39,259 bases of DNA from Syntrophus aciditrophicus (lineage in GTDB: Bacteria > Desulfobacterota > Syntrophia > Syntrophales > UBA8958), in contig DYRD01000017.1 of the NCBI GenBank assembly GCA_020718905.1, positions 1 to 39,259 on the forward strand, written 5' to 3'. This document shows, in pieces, positions 8,001-17,251 of the stretch. Position 1 is the stretch's first letter, and each line of letters opens with the position of its first letter. The translations under genes were made by a program, and so were the position numbers. The notes beneath the pieces are model-generated. The model searched no databases and was not told the origin of the DNA. It was given only the letters and a program-made list of their open reading frames with translations.

Positions 8001-8562
8001 GTGGTCACTTTGATTCGGAGTCAGGAGAAGATATCGTGCTATTCACATCTGGCCGGGGTATTTGCGGCGAGTGGCGGTACGATATATTTAATCCATATGG
8101 TACGGGCATGGACAGCTCATATGGTAGTTGCCATTGTTTACGGTTTATCGGCAATCCTGCTTTTTTCAGCCAGCGCTTCCTATCATGGGTTGAAACAAAA
8201 TGAGGATGAAATATCCATCTGGCGCAAACTGGACCATTCCGCCATATTTTTCATGATCGCCGGCACTTATACCCCTGTCTGCTATATATACCTTTCAGGA
8301 TATTGGAAATGGTCGATTATCATGATCCAGTGGGCATTAGTCGCTGGCGGGATATTTTTGAAATTTTTCTATCTCCATGCCCCCCATGGCCTTATTTTAC
8401 CTGTTTGCCGGCGGCATATCTTATACGGTCGGGGCGATATTCTATGCGATCAAAAAACCGGCTTGGAAGGCGGGGTTTGGTTTTCACGAAATCTTTCACC
8501 TCTTCGTCCTCCTGGGAGGGGTATTCCATTATCTGTTGGTCTACATCGCCCTGGCGGGATGA
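8001..8562 (+). pseudogene. Hemolysin III (YqfA/HlyIII) family membrane protein, frameshifted with internal deletion
   Basis: A GTG at 8001 (or TTG at 8010) begins a multi-helix protein of the hemolysin III/progestin-receptor-like family. ASYHGL (about residue 54) and KLDHSAIFFMIAGTYTPV carry the conserved metal-site Ser and His region of the superfamily. The frame breaks close to 8375, after GGIFLKFFYLHA. The last two helices follow one frame over from 8377 (MALFYLFAGGISYTVGAIF, then GFHEIFHLFVLLGGVFHYL with the conserved C-terminal His pair), ending at 8562. Compared with the family, about 25 residues (helix five and its loop) are missing at the junction. This looks like a true deletion rather than a one-base reading error. 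The product would not be functional. Confidence 0.65.
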
Positions 8563-8614
8563 CGGAATTATTACGCTTTATCGATTTGGACGGCAGCCGG
8601 AGCAGCCTAGAGGT

Positions 8615-9670
8615 TTACAGTGAGAATGACGACCAACCCCGCAACCAGGATTGTAATCGCCGCAACCCCGCTTCCATGGAAACCTGAGGTTCGTATTTCA
8701 GTTCCCGCCGGGCGGCGCTAATGTCGAACCAGTGGGATGTTGCAAGCTCCTCCGCCAAAAATCGCGTCATCCGGGGCTCCCCCGGCAGTCTCAGGGCCGA
8801 GTGGATGCTTTCGATTACCGTCCCCATAAGGACGGCGCCGGATTTCGGGACGCCGCGGCGGATCGGCGGGATATCCGCCATGGACAGGATGCGGTTGACG
8901 AAATCCCAGAGATTGACCGGTTCGCCGTTGGATATGAAGTAGGCCCGGCCCGAGGCGTGCGGGTTGTCCCTCAGGGCGGTGGCGGCCAAAAGATGGGCCG
9001 CGGCGGCGTTGTCTATGTAAGTCGTATCGATGATGTTTTTCCCGGCCCCCACCCGCAGGATCTTGCCGGCCCTAGCCTGGGCGAGGATGCGGGGGATGAT
9101 CTGGGTGTCCCCCGGTCCCCAGATGAGGTGGGGGCGCAGGGAAACGGTCCGGAGGTCCGGGGAGGCGGCAGCAAGGACGAGGCGTTCCCCTTCCGCCTTC
9201 GTGGCCGTGTAGGGGGAGCGGGGACGGGATGGATAGGGAACGGCTTCATCGACCCCCGCCATGTCGGCAGCGCCGAAAACGACGCTGGCGGAACTGGTAA
9301 AAACGAGACGGCCCACACCGGCGCTTCCGCAGGCGGCAAGGATGTTTTTCGTCCCCAGAACATTGGGCCGTGAGAAGGATTCGTAGTCCCCCCACACGCC
9401 TGCCTTGGCCGCATTGTGAAAGACAACGGCGCAGCCGGCGCAGGCCCGTTTCACCGCCTCGGGGTCCGTCAGGTCCCCTCTGATCACCGTAACGCCCCGC
9501 TGCCGCAGCTCCGGATAGTCGCCCCGGGCGAAACTCCGCACGGCATAGCCGGCCGCCAGGAGGTGATCGACGATGGCCCGTCCGAGAAAACCGCCGCCCC
9601 CGGTTACGAGAGCCTGAGTGCCCGTCGTTTGGGAGGACCCGGTATTTAATTCTTCGTTCTTATGGGGCAT
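8615..9670 (-). CDS. oleD: OleD, NAD(P)H-dependent 2-alkyl-3-ketoacid reductase
   Basis: A 351-residue extended short-chain dehydrogenase of the 3-beta-HSD type. In olefin biosynthesis OleD reduces the 2-alkyl-3-ketoacid made by OleA to the 2-alkyl-3-hydroxyacid. The nucleotide-binding glycine motif is TGGGGFLG (residues 23-30). The catalytic Ser lies in FTSSASVVF (about 124-132) and the YxxxK pair is Y154/K158 in SPYTATKAE. The start overlaps the oleC stop by one base (TAATG), so the two are translationally coupled. It is the last gene of the ole operon. On sequence alone it could be another sterol-dehydrogenase-like SDR; the neighbours make OleD the clear choice. Confidence 0.85.
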   Translation of the reverse strand: MPHKNEELNTGSSQTTGTQALVTGGGGFLGRAIVDHLLAAGYAVRSFARGDYPELRQRGVTVIRGDLTDPEAVKRACAGCAVVFHNAAKAGVWGDYESFSRPNVLGTKNILAACGSAGVGRLVFTSSASVVFGAADMAGVDEAVPYPSRPRSPYTATKAEGERLVLAAASPDLRTVSLRPHLIWGPGDTQIIPRILAQARAGKILRVGAGKNIIDTTYIDNAAAAHLLAATALRDNPHASGRAYFISNGEPVNLWDFVNRILSMADIPPIRRGVPKSGAVLMGTVIESIHSALRLPGEPRMTRFLAEELATSHWFDISAARRELKYEPQVSMEAGLRRLQSWLRGWSSFSL

Positions 9671-11352
9671 TATTTACTATGCCGTTCCGCCGCCCAGACC
9701 GTAAGCTGCTCCCGAAAAATCTTGGCATTGTGGCGGATGTCCACGGGGAAGCCGGGATGGTAGAGCACCGTCTTGATCTCCCGGGTTATTGCGCCGGCCC
9801 GGGCAATCGCCAGGATTTCCTCAGTCAGCCGGTCATTATCCCCCCCTGCGTCTCCCTGTTTTAGTTCGATAATGATTACGGGCCGCTTACTTCCCGTCTC
9901 CCCGACACCAACAAGGGCTGAACGCCTCACCCGGGGATGAACGTTGAAGAGGGCCTCGCAAGGAATGGTAAAGAGAGTCCCCCGGGCCGTTTCCACCCGG
10001 TGGGCCTTCCGGCCGCAGAACCACAGCCGGCCCGTATCGTCCAGATAGCCGAGATCACCCATGCGATGCCAGATACCGCCGTCGGCGTCTTGCATCTTCG
10101 CCGCCCGGGTCGCCACGGGGTTCTGGAAATATTCCTTTGTCGCCACCGGCCCCTTGACGGCAATTTCCCCGATCTGTCCCCGGGGGACCCTTACGGCGTC
10201 TCTTACATTTGCAAGCGCCTTTTCGGTTATTTCGATAATCCGGATCTCCATCCCCGCCAGGGGCCGGCCGACGCAGGTACCGCCGCCCGCCTCGGAGATG
10301 CGCCTGGTTTCGGTCAATATCTCCTTGCTGTCGATATCGCTCACCGGCAGGACTTCCGTCGCCCCATAGGGGGTATGGATCCGGGCATCTTCAGGAAGCA
10401 TGAGGTGCATGGCTTCTATGAGATCGGCCCGCACCGGGGCTCCGGCGGTGATGATCCGCTTGACGGCGGGGAGTTTCGTCCCCGCCTCCGCCCCGTAGCG
10501 GGCCAGATTCTCCAGGAGCGCCGGAGACCCGTACATGCTTTTGCAATTATGCATCGCAAGGGCCTGAACGATTTTCTTCGGATCCGCCGCAGCGGGGTGG
10601 GTGGGATCCATATCGGGAATGACCGAGGTCATCCCCAGAACGACGTCAAAAAGGGAAAAGAGGGGGAAAGTAGCCAGATCGACCTCATCCTGTCCATAAC
10701 CGAAGTGGGTGCTCAGGTAACGTACCTGGGCGTCAAACATCCCGTGTTCGTAGACAACGCCCTTGGGAGGACCGGTGCTGCCCGTAGTAAAGAAAATGGC
10801 GGCCCGTTCATCGGAACGGGCGGGAACGGGGGGGAAAGGCCGCCAGGGGACCTTGCGAAAATCATTCAGGGTATATCCTCCCCAGAAAAAGCGCCGGCCG
10901 ACGGTTATCTTGACCTTTACAGTCGAAAATTTGCCCGGCGAGAGGACCCGGAGGACATGGGCCAGGGGGACGCCGATGAAGGCCTCGGCGCCAATGGAGG
11001 AAAGATTAGCCACGAGTTTCTGCCGGCCCATCCCCGGATCGATCATCACCGGGACCGCCCCCACCCGGAAGAGGGCAAAGGTGAGGGCAAACAATTCCAG
11101 CGACGGCCTGACCATGAGGATCGTTTTCACCCCCTTGGTAATCCCTACCTGCCGCAAGCCGTGGGCCAGGCGGTCCGTTTCCTCCTCCAACTCCCGGAAG
11201 GTCCAGTGGACAAAGGTCCCCGAACCGGGGGCGGCGGGACAGATAACGGCCTTCTTGTCCGGGAGGAGGCGGGCAACACGGGAGAGATGCTCACTGAGGT
11301 TCGAGGTGCCGTTTGGTTTTGAGGCGCCGACGGTTGTATCTTCCATTTCCAT
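9670..11352 (-). CDS. oleC: OleC, beta-lactone synthetase of the AMP-dependent ligase superfamily
   Basis: A 560-residue adenylate-forming enzyme. OleC uses ATP to close the 2-alkyl-3-hydroxyacid from OleD into a beta-lactone. Visible motifs are the phosphate loop FFTTGSTGPPKGVV (about residues 187-200), the GATEVLP adenine-binding stretch, and GDLGYLDDTGRLWFCGRKAHR with the ribose-binding Asp and hinge. PVMIDPGMG (101-109) is a sequence I associate with OleC rather than ordinary fatty-acyl-CoA ligases. The start overlaps the end of oleB by one base (TAATG), and its own stop overlaps oleD in the same way. The operon position between oleB and oleD supports the call. A generic acyl-CoA synthetase is the alternative. 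Confidence 0.87.
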   Translation of the reverse strand: MEMEDTTVGASKPNGTSNLSEHLSRVARLLPDKKAVICPAAPGSGTFVHWTFRELEEETDRLAHGLRQVGITKGVKTILMVRPSLELFALTFALFRVGAVPVMIDPGMGRQKLVANLSSIGAEAFIGVPLAHVLRVLSPGKFSTVKVKITVGRRFFWGGYTLNDFRKVPWRPFPPVPARSDERAAIFFTTGSTGPPKGVVYEHGMFDAQVRYLSTHFGYGQDEVDLATFPLFSLFDVVLGMTSVIPDMDPTHPAAADPKKIVQALAMHNCKSMYGSPALLENLARYGAEAGTKLPAVKRIITAGAPVRADLIEAMHLMLPEDARIHTPYGATEVLPVSDIDSKEILTETRRISEAGGGTCVGRPLAGMEIRIIEITEKALANVRDAVRVPRGQIGEIAVKGPVATKEYFQNPVATRAAKMQDADGGIWHRMGDLGYLDDTGRLWFCGRKAHRVETARGTLFTIPCEALFNVHPRVRRSALVGVGETGSKRPVIIIELKQGDAGGDNDRLTEEILAIARAGAITREIKTVLYHPGFPVDIRHNAKIFREQLTVWAAERHSK

Positions 11353-12299
11353 TATCCGGGAAGGGGATGTTTTTTCAAGAACCCCTTCATGAGGAAGACA
11401 ATCTTATCTCCCTCATCTTCGAGGAGATAATGCCCTCCCTGGGGAAAGGTGTGCACTGCCGCGGCGGGAAATCGCCGGCGCCATTCGGCGAAGATAATCG
11501 CGTCAAAGACAAAATCCTTCCTTCCCCAGCAGATCATCATGGGAATATGACCCAGGAGGTGCAGATGCTCGTCCGTCCACTTAACGAGGGCGTAGCTTTT
11601 GTCTGACTGATAAACGGGGATATCCTGGACGAAGCGCAAGGTGGCAATCCGGTTTTTCCAGGAGTTGTAAGGGGCCGTCAGGGCGGCTCTTACTTCCCCG
11701 GACATCGTCTTGACAACACCCAGATAGGTGGCGAAATAGGAAAAGGCGTTGAAACCCCGCACCAGCAGCGCCGGAATGGCCGGGAAATGGCGGATAAACG
11801 ATAGTTGCCAGGGCAATGATTTCGCTTGCGGAATGAGAAAGGCCCCGGTATTGAGCACGACAATGCGGCTGATCCGCTCCGGCCTACGGGCGGCACAGGC
11901 CATGCCGATCATCCCTCCCCAGTCGTGCACGATGAGGGTGACGTTGCTTTTCAGCCCTAAATGATCCAGGAGGGCCTCGAGGTTGTTGACATGGCTCGCC
12001 ACGGTGTAGTCAAAGGCCTCGTCCGTAGGCCGGGAGGAAAGCCCGCAGCCCACATGGTCCGGGACAATCACCCGGCAGGAGGGACTCAGGGCCTTGACAA
12101 TGTCACGGTAATAGAATGACCAGGTCGGATTGCCGTGGACGGCCACGACGGGCTCCCCCTGCCCTTCATCCAGGTAGTGATAATAATAACCGGGGGCCTT
12201 CAGCCAATGGCTCGCGAAAGGGTATAAACGCCGGTGCGGGGCGATATCAAAGTGGGGCGTGATCTTGTCTGCAACGGCATCGGCAGGTGCGAATTTCAT
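11352..12299 (-). CDS. oleB: OleB, beta-lactone decarboxylase (alpha/beta-hydrolase, haloalkane-dehalogenase-like)
   Basis: An alpha/beta-hydrolase that, in the Ole pathway, removes CO2 from the beta-lactone to give the cis-olefin. The oxyanion motif HGNPTWS (about residues 55-61) and the nucleophile elbow VHDWGG with Asp126 are typical of the dehalogenase-like group. The late catalytic His lies in FPQGGHYLLED. I chose ATG 12299 (MKFAPADAVADK, 315 residues), because the frame upstream to 12392 does not resemble the family and overlaps the previous gene's end and a repeat copy. An AGGA lies only two bases before this ATG, so initiation may be weak. It is not fused to OleC, unlike the OleBC fusions known in actinobacteria. 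Confidence 0.85.
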   Translation of the reverse strand: MKFAPADAVADKITPHFDIAPHRRLYPFASHWLKAPGYYYHYLDEGQGEPVVAVHGNPTWSFYYRDIVKALSPSCRVIVPDHVGCGLSSRPTDEAFDYTVASHVNNLEALLDHLGLKSNVTLIVHDWGGMIGMACAARRPERISRIVVLNTGAFLIPQAKSLPWQLSFIRHFPAIPALLVRGFNAFSYFATYLGVVKTMSGEVRAALTAPYNSWKNRIATLRFVQDIPVYQSDKSYALVKWTDEHLHLLGHIPMMICWGRKDFVFDAIIFAEWRRRFPAAAVHTFPQGGHYLLEDEGDKIVFLMKGFLKKHPLPG

Positions 12300-12327
12300 G
12301 ATCCTAAGATGAATAATATTTGACGAA

Positions 12328-12357
12328 GGATGCAGCGCAACGCCGCATCCGGACTTT
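12328..12357 (-). repeat. Partial copy of the 17.26-kb palindromic repeat inside the ole operon
   Basis: The 30 bases here, read on the minus strand, match 17271-17300 at 29 of 30 positions. The similarity continues with an indel for about 10 more bases up to the oleA' stop. It lies in the only sizeable gap of the ole operon, between the second OleA gene and oleB. Confidence 0.75.
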
Positions 12358-12369
12358 ATTAAGCAGCCG

Positions 12370-13254
12370 TCACAGATTCCGATAGAGCGCAAGGGAAACG
12401 GTTATCCCGGCGCCGACGGTCAGGAAAAGACAGTTTTCCGCCGCCCCAAAGCGCCCCGAACTCATGGCCCGCTCCAGGGCAAATCCGATTCCCGCCGTAT
12501 GGACATTCTCCAATTTGTCGGTCACATCAACGAGCTTTCCCTCCATACCCTGCTTCTTTTTGAGTTCGCCCAGAAACCCGGGCGGACTCTGAGACGGAAT
12601 GATCAGATCAACGTCCTCCATTTTGAGCGAAGCCTCTTTCAAGAAAGCGTCCAGATTTTCCAGGGCATACTTGGCGCATTCCTTTGCATATCCTTCCGCC
12701 TGGCTCATGACCAGGATGTTTCCCATCTTCCGTTTATGCTGCCTCCATTCGAGTCTACCCTGCATATCATCGATAAAGCGGCCCGCCGTTTCCGACTTGA
12801 AATGGAGAAAACCGCTGCCGTCATCGCCGCGGGACAGCAGGAAAGCGGCAGCGGCGGGGGTGAAGCTGTAACCAAGACTTTCACCGGGGACCGGATCGGT
12901 ATCGGCGGCAACGACCATGCCATGCTCAATCATCCCGGATTGGAGAAAGCCGTCCACGACCATCACGCCGGTAAGCATCCCGCAGCCCCCATTGGTCAAG
13001 TCAAAGGAAAAGGTGCTGCGATTGCCGGTAATGACCTCATTGGCGCCGATAGCCCGTTGAATGAAAGTGGCAATGGCGGGTTCCCCCATATGGCGATCAC
13101 GATAAATTCCGGCATTAATCAGGATACCCAGCAAATTCGGATCCAGCCGGGCGCTTTTCAAGCAGTCATTTGCCGCCTTTATTTCCATGTCGACGGACCC
13201 CCGACGGAAAAATCCCGGGGTACTTAAACCAAGAGCATCAATTATCGATCCCAT
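12370..13254 (-). CDS. Second OleA-like ketosynthase subunit with degenerate active site
   Basis: A shortened thiolase/KAS-III-fold protein (294 residues from ATG 13254; an in-frame ATG at 13272 is possible) directly after oleA and overlapping its end by 17 bases. A GGTGG before 13254 favours that start. It keeps Cys91 in FDLTNGGCGMLTG and the Glu-Pro pair E58-P59 that aligns with the catalytic Glu of OleA. The His position reads Ser221 (LIIPSQSPPG) and the Asn position reads His252 (LENVHTAG). The first about 60 residues of OleA are missing. It most likely pairs with the upstream OleA as a non-equivalent subunit, as in two-subunit OleA relatives such as LstA/LstB of lipstatin synthesis. That partnership is inference. 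Confidence 0.75.
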   Translation of the reverse strand: MGSIIDALGLSTPGFFRRGSVDMEIKAANDCLKSARLDPNLLGILINAGIYRDRHMGEPAIATFIQRAIGANEVITGNRSTFSFDLTNGGCGMLTGVMVVDGFLQSGMIEHGMVVAADTDPVPGESLGYSFTPAAAAFLLSRGDDGSGFLHFKSETAGRFIDDMQGRLEWRQHKRKMGNILVMSQAEGYAKECAKYALENLDAFLKEASLKMEDVDLIIPSQSPPGFLGELKKKQGMEGKLVDVTDKLENVHTAGIGFALERAMSSGRFGAAENCLFLTVGAGITVSLALYRNL

Positions 13255-14344
13255 ATCGATCCACCAAATCATCCATAGTAAATATTACGAAACCCATCGT
13301 CAAACCCGAAGCCAGGGCCATAAGCATCATCCTGTCTCCCGCCTGGAAACGCTTTTCATGAAGATGACGGTATAGGGCCAAGAAATGTGATGTCGACGCT
13401 GTATTCCCGTATTCCTGCAGATTCACGATGATGTTTTTTGCCCGCACCCCAAAATAATGGCCCAGCCGTTTGTCTCCCGAACGGATGGCCCGTATGGAGG
13501 TCTGGTGGGGAACGATATGATCGATATCGCCATATTCCAGACCTGATCCTTGCAATGCCCTCTCGGTAATAAAAGGCATATTGTCGATGGCCACATGATG
13601 AATCTTCCTGGCGTCCGTGGTCATTTGCGCCCCCGGGGCGTTGCGGCAGGGCCCGCCGATGCAGAGGTCACTATACTTGGCGAGACTGACAAAATTCGAT
13701 ATTTCTAACGTTGCCTTACCTTCCGCGGATCTTTCCATGATCACCGCGGCGCCGCAATCGCCGACGGTCAGGGAGGCCAATTGGCCGCTTAGCACGGTTT
13801 TGACCCGGGGAACGGCGTTACGGCTCGCAGAAGTGAGGTTTTCACCGGAGATGACCATGCCACGCTTGATGACACCCCGGCGGATAAAATCATCCATGAT
13901 CAAAACACCGGTCAGCATCCCGGCACAGGCATTGGCAATGTCGAAATTCAAGGCCCGAGACGCCCCGATGGCCTCCTTGACATACAGGGAAAAGGGCGGT
14001 TCCCACACAAAAGTCGTGCCATCCTTGTATTTGGTAATGGAGCAGCAGATGATCATCTCCAGGTCCTCGCCCTGATAACGCGAGTGGTTCAGACAGTCCC
14101 GGGCGGCGTTGAGGGTAAGGCCGTAGGAATCTTCCTTAGCCGAACATACCCGTCGCTCCTTGATGCCGGTGAGTCGCTCGAGATCGAATTTTCCCCACAT
14201 CTTTACCCCGCTCATCAGATCCTTCGTGAAGAGGCGCTGCTCAGGAACCTTGACGCCGATGCTCTCAAAACGGCTCGCAAAGGGGGGAGATGAAGATGGG
14301 GAAGGAACGGAGGACCTTTCTTCTTTTGCTTTTTCAGTCTTCAT
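13238..14344 (-). CDS. oleA: OleA, fatty acyl-CoA head-to-head condensing enzyme
   Basis: A thiolase-superfamily enzyme that joins two long fatty acyl-CoA chains by a non-decarboxylative Claisen condensation to a 2-alkyl-3-ketoacid, the first step to long-chain olefins. The catalytic triad is complete: Cys140 in FDIANACAGMLTG, His280 in HIVPHQTS and Asn314 in YGNTAST. Glu115 in FVWEPPFSLY matches the Glu base (E117 in Xanthomonas OleA). The spacing is close to that enzyme. ATG 14344 is chosen; a TTG at 14365 is the upstream alternative, and the GGAGG between them is far (about 14 bases) from the ATG. The N-terminus has a Ser/Pro-rich stretch before the fold. First gene of the ole operon, with a promoter at 14401-14429. 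Related KAS III enzymes are the alternative call. Confidence 0.82.
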   Translation of the reverse strand: MKTEKAKEERSSVPSPSSSPPFASRFESIGVKVPEQRLFTKDLMSGVKMWGKFDLERLTGIKERRVCSAKEDSYGLTLNAARDCLNHSRYQGEDLEMIICCSITKYKDGTTFVWEPPFSLYVKEAIGASRALNFDIANACAGMLTGVLIMDDFIRRGVIKRGMVISGENLTSASRNAVPRVKTVLSGQLASLTVGDCGAAVIMERSAEGKATLEISNFVSLAKYSDLCIGGPCRNAPGAQMTTDARKIHHVAIDNMPFITERALQGSGLEYGDIDHIVPHQTSIRAIRSGDKRLGHYFGVRAKNIIVNLQEYGNTASTSHFLALYRHLHEKRFQAGDRMMLMALASGLTMGFVIFTMDDLVDRYGIDN

Positions 14345-14400
14345 GATTCGTTTGGAAACCTCCAATCCAATAAGGAAGGTAAGAGGTTAAAATGCGTGAT

Positions 14401-14429
14401 AGTGTATTGAAAACATCCTTTCCTGTCAA
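14401..14429 (-). promoter_or_regulatory. Sigma-70 promoter of the ole operon
   Basis: On the minus strand TTGACA (14429-14424), a 17-base spacer and TACACT (14406-14401) stand about 57 bases before the oleA ATG. The -35 is perfect and the -10 matches four of six. Confidence 0.65.
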
Positions 14430-14453: not shown

Positions 14454-14483
14454 TTGACACAAAGGGGCTTCATAGTATATAAT
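14454..14483 (+). promoter_or_regulatory. Consensus sigma-70 promoter of the phasin-LolA-barrel operon
   Basis: TTGACA (14454-14459), 18 bases, TATAAT (14478-14483): both boxes are exact consensus. The gene starts at 14532. The -35 and the base pair to its left form an 8-bp inverted repeat with the ole promoter's -35 (14424-14431 against 14452-14459). Confidence 0.75.
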
Positions 14484-14531
14484 GCTGATTATTATAAAGG
14501 ATTTCCATATCCGATGGGAAGGGAGAAAACG

Positions 14532-14912
14532 ATGCTGGATCTGGCAAAAAAAGCCGTGCTCATCGGCACCGGGATGGCCTTGGCGGCGACGGACAAAATT
14601 CAAGGCGTCGTTGACAATCTGGCGGAAAAAGGAGAAAATGCGGGCAAGGAGGCCCGGGAGGCCGTCCAAGGTCTTGTGAAAAAAACGCAAGAGACCCGCA
14701 ATGCCGTCGAAGGTGAAGCGGAGAAGGTTATGACGGATGTTACCGCTTTCTGGTTCTATGCCAGCTGGATGGACGAAATGGAGGATCAGGTGGAGAAAGT
14801 CGTAACCCTCCTCTTGAAAAAACTCCATATTCCGGAACGGCGGGAACTGGAAGACGTCAAGGCAAGGATTGAAAGGCTGGAGCAGGAACCGGGACAGGAT
14901 AATTGCGATTGA
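14532..14912 (+). CDS. Phasin-like small helical protein
   Basis: A 126-residue, charged, nearly all-helical protein starting at ATG 14532 (MLDLAKKAVLIGTGMALAAT), seven bases after GGGAG. An upstream in-frame ATG at 14520 and earlier codons lie in the promoter region and are not used. The layout is a short hydrophobic N-terminal helix, then long amphipathic helices, and a C-terminal LHIPERRELEDVKARIERLE. This last motif is characteristic of the polyhydroxyalkanoate granule-associated (phasin-like) family, where proteins coat hydrophobic inclusions or act in stress. No PHA synthase is in view. It is the first gene of a three-gene set transcribed away from the ole operon, so a coat for a hydrophobic product is possible. 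Confidence 0.65.
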   Translation: MLDLAKKAVLIGTGMALAATDKIQGVVDNLAEKGENAGKEAREAVQGLVKKTQETRNAVEGEAEKVMTDVTAFWFYASWMDEMEDQVEKVVTLLLKKLHIPERRELEDVKARIERLEQEPGQDNCD

Positions 14913-14941
14913 CCATTATCAGTTTATCAAAGGAGGCAGAT

Positions 14942-15754
14942 ATGGCAAAAAGGACTATTATCTGGATTATGGGCATTTTATTTCTTTTCAGCGCTTCCGT
15001 TGTCTCAGCGCAGATGACGGGAAGGCAGGTTATGGAAAAACAGAAGGAACGCCATAAGGTCAAGACGGAAATCGGCAATGAGGACATGATCCTGCAAGAC
15101 AAGAGCGGGGCCAAGGAAAACCGCCAGGTGGTACGCTATGCAAAGGAAGTCGGTAAGGACCTGCACCGCTACCTCGTGGTGTTTCTGAGCCCCGGCGACA
15201 TCCGCGGGACGGCGCTGCGGACCTGGGAGAAAAAAGGCAGAGACAACGATCAGTGGCTCTACCTGCCGGCAAAGAAGACGGATCAACGCATTGCCAAGGC
15301 GGGGAAGAGAAACTACTTCATGGGCACCGATTTTACCTATGAAGACCTGGAACCGGAAGACCTGGACAATTTCAACTACAACATCCTCCGGTCGGAGCAG
15401 TTCAGTCATGAAGGAAAGGCTTATGACTGTTATGTAATCGAGGCCCTTCCCGCCAATGACAAGAAAAAGCAGGAAACGGGCTATGCCAAGCGGATCATGT
15501 GGATCGAAAAAGTCAACCTGACCACGCTGAAGACTGATTTCTACGACCGGCGCGATAAGCACCAGAAAACCCAGCTCAACTACAAGTACGTGAACGTAGG
15601 CGGCACCGTCATGCGTCCCATGCAGACGATTATGAACAACATGGAAAAGAGCCACAAAACGGCGACAACCACGAGAGCGCGGAAAATAAATACCAATATG
15701 GCTGATTCCACCTTCACCGATTCATTTATCCTGTCAGGCAAGCATCTGGAGTAA
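14942..15754 (+). CDS. Periplasmic outer-membrane lipoprotein-sorting (LolA-like) protein
   Basis: A 270-residue exported protein. ATG 14942 is preceded by a perfect AAGGAGG, and residues 1-23 are a signal peptide ending near VVSAQ. The mature part matches the LolA-like outer-membrane lipoprotein-sorting family: MTGRQVMEKQKERHKVKTEI at the start, then strands such as YLVVFLSPGDIRGTALRTWE, DQWLYLPAKK and RIMWIEKVNLTTLKTDFYD. Such proteins have an open hydrophobic barrel fold that can hold a lipid chain. In many bacteria they are next to RND/MMPL exporters and barrels; here the barrel follows 15 bases downstream but no RND gene is present. It probably carries a lipid or helps the barrel. True LolA is shorter, so it is not called lolA. 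Confidence 0.72.
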   Translation: MAKRTIIWIMGILFLFSASVVSAQMTGRQVMEKQKERHKVKTEIGNEDMILQDKSGAKENRQVVRYAKEVGKDLHRYLVVFLSPGDIRGTALRTWEKKGRDNDQWLYLPAKKTDQRIAKAGKRNYFMGTDFTYEDLEPEDLDNFNYNILRSEQFSHEGKAYDCYVIEALPANDKKKQETGYAKRIMWIEKVNLTTLKTDFYDRRDKHQKTQLNYKYVNVGGTVMRPMQTIMNNMEKSHKTATTTRARKINTNMADSTFTDSFILSGKHLE

Positions 15755-15769
15755 AGGAGTCCGCTACCG

Positions 15770-17251
15770 ATGAGAATTAACCCGCTTCTCAAAAGTTTAG
15801 CCCTCCTGCTGGTCATATATCTCCTCTGCCCCCCTTTCACCTGGGTGCAGACGGACTACCGTTTACAGCAAGACGATCTGCTCAAGGAGATGGATAAGGC
15901 AGGGGAAGCCACACCGGAACAAAAGGGCCAGGGAAAGATCGTCCAGGCGGCAGCAAAGGAATCGACCGTACTCTCAAAGCTTGTGGACGACTTTCACGGC
16001 AGTTTACGCCTGCGGGGGATGCATTACTGGCAGAATCCTCCGGAACGGGAGGGGGCGGATACAAGAAACGACTTCGGCAATGCCCTTTTTAAATTCTCCG
16101 ACAAGATCAGTTACCAGAACTTCGCCTTTAATGTCGGGGGCTGGGTAGAGTACGGCAACGAGGAAAATACCTATTCCGGGACCTCTTTCAGCGAGTTCTG
16201 GCAGGACCTGGACCGGCGCCGGCGTATCCTGGATATGAGCGATCTATACGTCAACTACAGACGGGACACCTTTAATTTCCTGGTCGGGGAAAAGACCCTC
16301 ACCAACGGCATGTCCACGCTGTACCTGCCCTCAGACCGGATGCGGCCTCAGGATCTCAACGATCCCCTGGACGTCAAGGATCTCAACATCTGGCAGGCGC
16401 GAATGGATTACGACGTAGCCGAAGCAACGACACTGACCGCCGCCTTTCTCCCCGTGTATCAACCCCAGAAGACACCCAGTGAGACTTCACGCTGGATGGG
16501 GGAACGGAAGCAGGGTGATTCTACGGAATTCGACCTCTACGATGCGGGCAATGCCAATATGCAAGAAGACGTCGCCAAGGTCACGGATAACAACTTCGGC
16601 TATTTTGCCCGCTTCAAGAAGAAGGGGTTTCACGGCTGTGATTTCTTTGCCTCCTTCTATCACGGCCCCAATCCCTTCTATGTCGTTCGAGAAGTAACCG
16701 ATCCAGGAACCGGCCTACCCCAGCGCATCAAGGAAGTCGTCAAAGTGGACGACTACGCCGCCGGCTTCTCCACGACCTATGAAAGCTGGGAATTTCATGG
16801 GGAAGTGGTCTATAATTACGCTTACGACCGTAAGGATGACGACTATTTCAACTATGTGGCCGGTTTTACCTACACCTTCGATGATTTCGCCAAAAAGCTC
16901 TGGCTGGAGAAGATCGAGGTAACCGCCGAATATGCCAACGAGATCATCACCAGGTTTCAGAACGCCGCAACCTATGTCTCCAGTTCGAAGAAATCGCGCC
17001 TCGGCCGCAATGACATCCTGAGTCGCATCAATTTTGAGTACAGCAACAAGTTGTCTTTCCAGTTCGTCTGTAATTTTCTCCTCACCCGGGGAGAAGAAGG
17101 ACGGTTTCAAAGGTTGGAGGCCAAATATAAACTCCGGGACGGCCTGATTACAAAACTCGCGGGAGAGTTTTTCGGGGGGCAAAGCGACAGTACCTATGGC
17201 CGCTGGCAGCGCAACGACCGGCTCATCCTGGAGTTTGAATACGGTTTCTGA
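15770..17251 (+). CDS. Outer-membrane beta-barrel protein (DUF1302/porin-like)
   Basis: A 493-residue protein with an N-terminal hydrophobic signal segment (residues 1-27; ATG 15770, with AAGGAG upstream). A helical, Lys/Glu-rich linker follows (about 35-75), then many amphipathic strands with alternating hydrophobic residues, for example KISYQNFAFNVGGWVEYGN, DMSDLYVNYRRDTFNFLVGE and NYVAGFTYTFDDF. It ends in LILEFEYGF; the terminal Phe is the usual outer-membrane assembly signal. It resembles DUF1302-type barrels that pair with LolA-like proteins, consistent with the gene upstream. The transported substrate is unknown. It closes the three-gene set, and a palindromic repeat follows its stop within 7 bases. 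Confidence 0.68.
   Translation: MRINPLLKSLALLLVIYLLCPPFTWVQTDYRLQQDDLLKEMDKAGEATPEQKGQGKIVQAAAKESTVLSKLVDDFHGSLRLRGMHYWQNPPEREGADTRNDFGNALFKFSDKISYQNFAFNVGGWVEYGNEENTYSGTSFSEFWQDLDRRRRILDMSDLYVNYRRDTFNFLVGEKTLTNGMSTLYLPSDRMRPQDLNDPLDVKDLNIWQARMDYDVAEATTLTAAFLPVYQPQKTPSETSRWMGERKQGDSTEFDLYDAGNANMQEDVAKVTDNNFGYFARFKKKGFHGCDFFASFYHGPNPFYVVREVTDPGTGLPQRIKEVVKVDDYAAGFSTTYESWEFHGEVVYNYAYDRKDDDYFNYVAGFTYTFDDFAKKLWLEKIEVTAEYANEIITRFQNAATYVSSSKKSRLGRNDILSRINFEYSNKLSFQFVCNFLLTRGEEGRFQRLEAKYKLRDGLITKLAGEFFGGQSDSTYGRWQRNDRLILEFEYGF

Follow-up and report, generated by a model that had tools for sequence, protein, structure and literature searches.

We describe an operon in a stretch of DNA from Syntrophus aciditrophicus (GenBank assembly GCA_020718905.1, contig DYRD01000017.1, positions 1 to 39,259; this whole stretch of 39,259 nucleotides is called the window below). 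Five closely spaced genes lie on its minus strand (14344..8615) in the order A1, A2, oleB, oleC and oleD, and thus the full ole pathway for olefin synthesis is present in one operon, as had been claimed in a preliminary description of the window. The operon is real and conserved, and its first two genes probably encode a functional condensing pair of the type formed by LstA and LstB of lipstatin synthesis, set within a complete ole gene set. A2 begins 17 nt before A1 ends, a gap of about 70 nt follows A2 before the chosen start of oleB, and one base is common to the stop of oleB and the start of oleC, as also to the stop of oleC and the start of oleD. Coordinates are collected in Table 1; genomes and loci used for comparison are cited by our own handles (G and L numbers).

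Both A1 and A2 are assigned to the KAS-III proteins by Pfam and NCBIfam, in line with the earlier view that two OleA-fold proteins head the operon. They share 22.9% identity over 301 residues, a similarity beyond chance (BLAST E-value 6e-18). OleB belongs to the alpha/beta hydrolases; its highest-scoring NCBIfam models are those of haloalkane dehalogenases, all of them under their cut-offs (top score 157.4 against 466). OleC scored 711.9 bits with a broad AMP-ligase model (NF006754, cut-off 478), the sole NCBIfam model to reach its cut-off among the matches of OleB, OleC and OleD; the olefin beta-lactone synthetase model NF045786 gave 623.7 bits against a cut-off of 900, and another gave 574.4 against 850. 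For OleD the scores were 403.6 bits (NF042422) and 383.5, both against cut-offs of 580, with the next model at 140.3.

Catalytic positions of A1 and A2

Alignment places Glu115, Cys140, His280 and Asn314 in A1, the four residues named for it in the preliminary description, as the equivalents of Glu117, Cys143, His285 and Asn315 of OleA; Xanthomonas campestris OleA and the single OleA of genome G023 align at the same motifs. The whole set is kept in 23 of 23 aligned A1 proteins. When three further pairs are added, the Cys-His-Asn triad is found in all 26 A1 copies and the Glu in 25, the exception being the A1 of G282, which has Lys.

A2 fails at the Cys and His positions. Its nucleophile position is Gly90, which aligns with Cys140 of A1, and Cys91 lies one residue further on (FDIANACAG in A1, FDLTNGGCG in A2). 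Among 24 aligned A2 proteins the residue at the nucleophile position is Gly in 14, Ala in eight, Thr in one and Glu in one, and never Cys; an A2 with a catalytic Cys in place is ruled out by this alignment register. The His position is Ser221 (Ser in 19, Thr in two, Ala in two and Asn in one of the 24, never His), and the Asn position is Asn250, with Asn in only 8 of 24. Glu58, on the other hand, is Glu in 24 of 24 aligned A2 proteins, and in 27 of 27 when the A2 of G282 and the two of G090 are included, which makes it the invariant member of the catalytic set of A2; these three further A2 proteins likewise have no Cys at the nucleophile position. The previous account of A2, with Cys91 and Glu58 kept and with Ser and His in place of His and Asn, is therefore right for Glu58 and Ser221 and needs correction elsewhere: Cys91 is displaced by one residue, and the Asn position holds Asn250, with the His (His252) two residues beyond it.

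Cys91 and His252 raise the question of whether these two residues are the basis of a separate, remodelled activity in A2. His252 is present in 24 of 24 A2 proteins and also in the A2 of G282, and Cys91 in 21 of 24, a degree of conservation that would suit such an activity. The other three proteins, however, have Ser, Gly or Ala in place of Cys91, and both divergent A2 copies of G090 have Met at the Cys91 position and Phe at that of His252. Since these positions vary in some A2 proteins, neither residue is needed throughout the clade, and we regard an independent activity of this kind as very improbable.

The G282 pair, with Lys at the Glu position of A1 and an intact Glu in A2, fits the Glu of A2 being the important one. 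This Lys is the sole natural hint that the Glu of A1 may be dispensable, and it comes from a genome with no OleC match, where the chemistry may differ.

Folds, selection and phylogeny

The AlphaFold2 models of A1 and A2 have mean confidence scores (pLDDT) of 88.3 and 89.0. The top 11 structural matches of the A1 model are all X. campestris OleA (Z 40.1-40.6, root-mean-square deviation (rmsd) 2.1-2.8, 320-328 residues), a small margin above the next match, FabH (Z 39.4). The A2 model has the thiolase fold; its best match in the PDB is PqsD (Z 33.2, rmsd 2.7, 280 residues) and it matches OleA with Z 31.9, rmsd 2.3 over 273 residues. A2 had been described as N-terminally short. It does have about 32 residues fewer, but this is not a simple N-terminal cut: the first strand (E3-11) is retained and the residues after it are gone, a gap that corresponds to four small elements of A1 (E37-39, H40-44, H55-59 and E63-65).

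The ratio of nonsynonymous to synonymous substitution rates (dN/dS) is 0.10-0.15 for A2 and 0.11-0.14 for A1, calculated against four relatives each, and 0.08-0.17 for OleB, with the starts of OleB and of the relatives set by hand. A2 is under purifying selection like A1, and so is OleB. The loss from A2 of about 32 residues and of most catalytic residues might suggest a decaying duplicate of A1. These dN/dS values, the occurrence of 27 copies in several phyla, the separate clade described below and the confident fold all speak against decay, which is hardly credible here; dN/dS, conservation and fold rule out A2 as a pseudogene.

In a tree of 69 proteins A2 (24 sequences, support 100), single OleA (20 sequences, support 100) and A1 (23 sequences, support 79) form separate clades. 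The single OleA clade excludes both A1 and A2, so that A1 lies outside the canonical single-OleA clade, and the A2 of Longimycelium (L048) falls inside the A2 clade (support 100). The distances among A1 proteins mirror those among A2 proteins: across 23 pairs they correlate at r 0.94, a value reached in none of 2000 permutations. Partial or over-long frames were omitted from this tree (A2 of L046, L050 and L054; A1 of L034, L050 and L054), with their residues still included in the residue counts, and the OleA of G023 appears once, as L063. The trees of OleB and OleC were midpoint-rooted and omit the OleC of L032, L036, L043, L047 and L054, the OleB of L032 and regions lacking a long enough match. 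In both, operons with the A1-A2 pair and operons with a single OleA are intermixed. In the OleC tree a spirochaete OleC groups with those of three single-OleA operons (96), apart from the OleC of the window's family and of an archaeal-labelled genome (97-99); the branches of the OleB tree that match this split are weak (63-70). The separate placement of the spirochaete OleC suggests that the pair was joined to the B and C genes at least twice.

Distribution of the A1-A2 pair

Close A2 orthologues were found in 9 of 60 genomes searched, the window's own genome included, the other eight being 50-87% identical; the remaining matches of this search were A1 partners or weak KAS-III matches. The preliminary description had proposed a look for the same gene order in related genomes. 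All nine operons, that of the window included, have the order A1-A2-oleB-oleC, and oleD follows in seven; the contig of G004 stops within oleC. Within the family (11 genomes, own included) A2 and oleC are jointly present in nine and jointly missing in two (G007 and G009). In G002 about 11 kb separate oleC from oleD (G002:C24:20740-32109), with TPR and FecR-domain genes next to oleC. The OleD proteins of G001 (L021) and G006 (L022) are 65% identical to that of the window and their other operon proteins 82-89%, while OleD of G003 and G005 is 82-84% identical; oleD has likely been replaced in G001 and G006, judging from these identities.

A scan of genome contigs gave 22 loci, of which seven are family relatives already counted and 15 are others. 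In six of the latter (L041-L044, L047 and L053; four labelled Bacteroidales or Bacteroidetes, one Chlorobiota and one as another bacterium) a distant hydrolase precedes A1-A2 and oleC, with oleD in five; oleC of L043 is split over two frames. L043 and L053 are near-identical despite their labels of Bacteroidales and Chlorobiota. The contig of L046 begins inside A2 and continues with oleC-oleD. A metagenome-assembled genome (MAG) labelled Thermoplasmatota (L045:8890-14459) has A1-A2 facing oleD-oleC-oleB, and a spirochaete MAG (L051:8929-14630) has A1-A2, an oleB-oleC fusion of 897 residues and oleD. In the L045 genome another contig has a full-length match to an archaeal 16S model. The same model also fires in bacterial controls, which makes it a weak test, and the origin of the L045 ole contig is unproved. 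Longimycelium (L048) and Dactylosporangium have A1-A2-oleC-oleD with no oleB match; the Longimycelium operon also holds genes for a nonribosomal peptide synthetase (NRPS) and a formyltransferase, a layout (A1-A2-oleC-oleD-NRPS-formyltransferase) that we take to be the lipstatin layout. In Nocardia stercoris (L054) oleD lies close to A1-A2, the ligase match is weak and there is none for OleB, and two Mycobacterium loci and one Aminicenantes contig have, of these genes, the pair only. A1 and A2 are adjacent at every locus showing both. Pairs with no OleC nearby occur at L061 (G282), L062 (G090), L049 and L050 and perhaps serve for ketones or other products; G090 has two A1-A2 pairs about 11 kb apart.

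The pair together with OleB is thus seen in nine genomes of one deltaproteobacterial family, in the archaeal-labelled MAG and, as an OleBC fusion, in the spirochaete MAG. The arrangement had been considered little described in a deltaproteobacterium-like genome, and a limited literature search met no account of OleB occurring with an LstB-type subunit; the arrangement is not confined to such genomes, since MAGs of other phyla carry the pair with OleB or another hydrolase. A two-subunit enzyme of this kind is already known; its union with OleB did not appear in that search.

In a sample of 247 genomes of the phylum, A1 was detected (E up to 1e-35; a more distant A1 would escape) at six loci in five genomes, with A2 alongside at all six. 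No genome of the sample had both A1 and a single OleA at this threshold. Sixteen single-OleA regions were searched for A2 with matches below 80 bits included; each has one KAS-III gene and none has A2, and B was found in 13 of them, C in 11 and D in 10. No OleC was found in G282 or G090 at E up to 1e-40, though the pair is present. In G039 (L032) an OleC-like ligase (39%) adjoins a hydrolase that lacks the pentad motifs of OleB, and neither A1 nor a single OleA was found in this genome at E up to 1e-35.

These data bear on the possibility that A1 is a homodimeric OleA of the usual kind that relies on its own Glu115, with A2 as a regulator, a chaperone or an inactive decoy. X. campestris OleA is homodimeric, with a Glu from one subunit acting as base in its partner's active site (PMC7064751). 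The retention of both Glu115 and the triad in A1 and the closeness of its model to this OleA would agree with such an arrangement. A1 without A2, however, was seen at none of the six phylum loci, within the threshold given above. The Glu of A2 is kept in every copy while its other catalytic positions vary, and a mere chaperone would need no Glu. The Lys of G282 A1 and the insolubility of LstA and LstB when alone (PMC12141560) also argue against a self-sufficient A1, and we consider it unlikely.

OleB and the expected end product

The catalytic pentad of OleB is complete, with the Asn in HGNPTW, Asp-Trp in HDWGG, Asp in RKDF and His in GGHY. PMC10503415 names these residues of the subfamily III haloalkane dehalogenases (HLD-III) for DhmeA and says that they are conserved in X. 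campestris OleB. An intact pentad within a full ole operon makes an alkene the expected end product, in agreement with the earlier proposal for a pair that occurs with OleB. At the six Bacteroidota-type loci the hydrolase motif is HG[VE]P (Val or Glu for Asn) instead of HGNP, and these hydrolases form a distant group (support 100), whereas the family's OleB falls among the OleB proteins of single-OleA operons, with a weakly supported exact place (70).

The product might nevertheless be a beta-lactone or a ketone, with OleB serving some other function or being only weakly active. In the characterised LstAB pathway the end product is the beta-lactone lipstatin (PMC12141560), HLD-III proteins are poorly understood (PMC10503415), and the Bacteroidota-type relatives have a different hydrolase. 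Against this stand the complete pentad, the position of oleB inside all nine family operons, its purifying selection and its grouping apart from the Bacteroidota-type hydrolases. A lactone or ketone end product is accordingly improbable in our view, somewhat more so than a homodimeric A1.

Comparison with known condensing enzymes

The preliminary description had likened the pair to LstA/LstB of lipstatin synthesis. The comparison with these Streptomyces toxytricini proteins holds in the residue pattern, in an identity of about 23% between adjacent unequal KAS-III genes, and in the clade that A2 shares with the lipstatin-like A2. The lipstatin-like operon L048 also has OleC- and OleD-like genes after the pair. 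It differs in having no oleB match and an added NRPS and formyltransferase, whereas here oleB lies inside the operon. Lipstatin-type operons are not known to contain oleB and carry the NRPS and formyltransferase in addition. PqsB/PqsC of Pseudomonas is another KAS-III heterodimer with one degenerate subunit, with substrates and pathway different from those considered here; PqsB was not among the names in our sequence and structure match listings, which excludes nothing.

A 2025 review (PMC12141560) reports that LstA and LstB are soluble only together and are 23% identical, that the mutants LstA C128A, LstA H271A and LstB E60A are inactive, and that LstA N305A gave no soluble complex. There the triad is in one subunit and an essential Glu in the other; the residues of A1 and A2 follow the same pattern. 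LstB counterparts are described in the same source as widespread and always adjoining LstA.

With the homodimeric OleA systems (oleABCD of X. campestris and the single-OleA loci of the phylum) the operon shares the downstream B, C and D genes and, in A1, the Glu-Cys-His-Asn set and a model closest, by a small margin, to X. campestris OleA. Single-OleA operons differ in their own clade and in having one KAS-III gene and no A2. The oleACD clusters of Actinobacteria (nocardiolactone and others) resemble the operon in that L054 of N. stercoris has A1-A2 close to OleD, and differ in having no decarboxylase and a beta-lactone product (PMC7064751).

A putative heterodimer in olefin synthesis

The reading we prefer, to which we give a probability of about 0.7 on the basis of sequence and analogy, is that A1 pairs with A2 in an LstA/LstB-type KAS-III heterodimer, which starts the synthesis of an olefin and not of a beta-lactone. 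In this scheme the heterodimer would replace the homodimeric OleA of ordinary olefin operons. Cys140-His280-Asn314 of A1 would accept the first acyl group of an acyl-CoA in thioester linkage, as is usual in the family. A2, with its nucleophile and His lost, would contribute Glu58, which would extend over the dimer interface to the active site of A1 and, like Glu117 of X. campestris OleA and E60 of LstB, act there as general base in activating the second acyl-CoA. The predicted condensation product is a 2-alkyl-3-keto acid, which, following the known pathway, OleD would reduce, OleC would close to a beta-lactone and OleB would convert to a long-chain alkene by removal of CO2. One active site per dimer, with two non-equivalent acyl pockets, may prefer two different chains; this is conjecture, though the joining of two different acyl chains by A1-A2 is plausible by analogy. 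What the analysis itself shows are the operon genes, the residue pattern and its constancy, the pairing of A1 with A2, the selection on them and their modelled folds; dimerisation, the role of Glu58, the alkene product and the two-chain preference are what we infer from these comparisons.

Several points weigh against this reading. Glu115 is retained in 25 of the 26 A1 copies, which makes an A1 homodimer compatible with the sequence. Glu58 is equated with E60 of LstB by family pattern and not by direct alignment. OleB, OleC and OleD all score under the cut-offs of the specific NCBIfam models. Some dS values are near saturation (up to 2.6). The correlation between A1 and A2 distances, calculated without a control gene, partly reflects shared species history. 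In the phylum sample single-OleA loci without A2 are commoner than the pair (24 genomes against five), and the pair without OleC in G282 and G090 means that the pair alone does not imply olefins and can serve elsewhere.

Neighbouring genes

The window and six relatives (L021, L023, L024, L025, L027 and L028) have genes for a phasin-family and a LolA-like protein that are divergent to the operon, and a third divergent gene of the 493-residue type is present in five of these. L026 has no phasin or LolA-like neighbours, and the contig of L022 ends too early to show them. An MMPL exporter and an ABC1 kinase are also near the operon of L028. The listed phasin open reading frame begins at a TTG inside a promoter match, and its true start is probably later; a scan of the phasin against PHROGs gave no match. 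The protein of 493 residues could be an outer-membrane barrel, which is a guess from its sequence. A polyhydroxyalkanoate (PHA) synthase match is present in the window's own genome and in 10 of 11 other searched genomes, some of these matches being weak, so that the phasin need not be tied to alkenes; the phasin as a sign of hydrocarbon granules is unsupported. The scan for sigma-70-like promoters found 8 sites in the region, against 4.5 expected in shuffled sequence. A haemolysin-III-type gene (8001..8687, plus strand) has its second half in another frame, Pfam covering the first part only, which is either a frameshift or an assembly error.

Table 1. Positions of the operon genes, their catalytic codons and adjoining features in the window
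Feature	Coordinates	Strand	Remarks
A1 (LstA/OleA-like catalytic subunit)	13238..14344	-	368 aa from ATG; TTG start at 14365 possible
A1 residue codons	Glu115 14002..14000; Cys140 13927..13925; His280 13507..13505; Asn314 13405..13403	-	
A2 (LstB-like subunit)	12370..13254	-	294 aa; start is the Met common to nine aligned orthologues
A2 alternative start	ATG at 13272	-	would give 300 aa
A2 residue codons	Glu58 13083..13081; Gly90 12987..12985; Cys91 12984..12982	-	
A2 residue codons, C-terminal half	Ser221 12594..12592; Asn250 12507..12505; His252 12501..12499	-	
oleB (beta-lactone decarboxylase-like; subfamily III haloalkane dehalogenase type)	11352..12299	-	315 aa
oleB start		-	ATG picked by comparison with relatives; a TTG at 12392 appears less probable
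oleC (beta-lactone synthetase-like AMP ligase)	9670..11352	-	560 aa
oleD (2-alkyl-3-oxoalkanoate reductase-like)	8615..9670	-	351 aa
Sigma-70-like promoter match upstream of A1	14401..14429	-	TTGACA-17-TACACT, 10/12; consensus match only
Sigma-70-like promoter match for divergent genes	14454..14483	+	12/12; consensus match only
Phasin-family protein, divergent neighbour	14454..14912	+	Pfam PF05597; relatives
LolA-like protein, divergent neighbour	14903..15754	+	PF17131; relatives
493-aa protein, no Pfam match	15770..17251	+	relatives

Implications

A wider picture can be drawn, although we hold it as tentative and, taken as a whole, doubtful: a heteromeric branch of olefin synthesis in anaerobic bacteria, and perhaps in an archaeon. 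Its enzyme would be an obligate heterodimer of ancient origin whose single active site is made complete by a Glu that an inactive subunit supplies in trans. This enzyme would have been joined to OleB and OleC more than once, in replacement of homodimeric OleA. Its unlike pockets would yield alkenes from two different acyl-CoAs, and in Syntrophales-type cells the product might be handled by the neighbouring phasin, LolA-like and membrane proteins.

The two-part condensing enzyme is known from the makers of lipstatin, a drug lead. If the heterodimer proposed here is real, the two-subunit condensing enzyme would be an alternative to OleA that serves hydrocarbon synthesis too and not only the makers of beta-lactones. 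Separate catalytic and helper subunits may be easier than a homodimer to re-engineer for two chosen chain lengths. The anaerobic deltaproteobacteria of this family, together with the spirochaete and the archaeal-labelled MAG, would then be added to the possible producers of long-chain alkenes in anoxic water and sediment.

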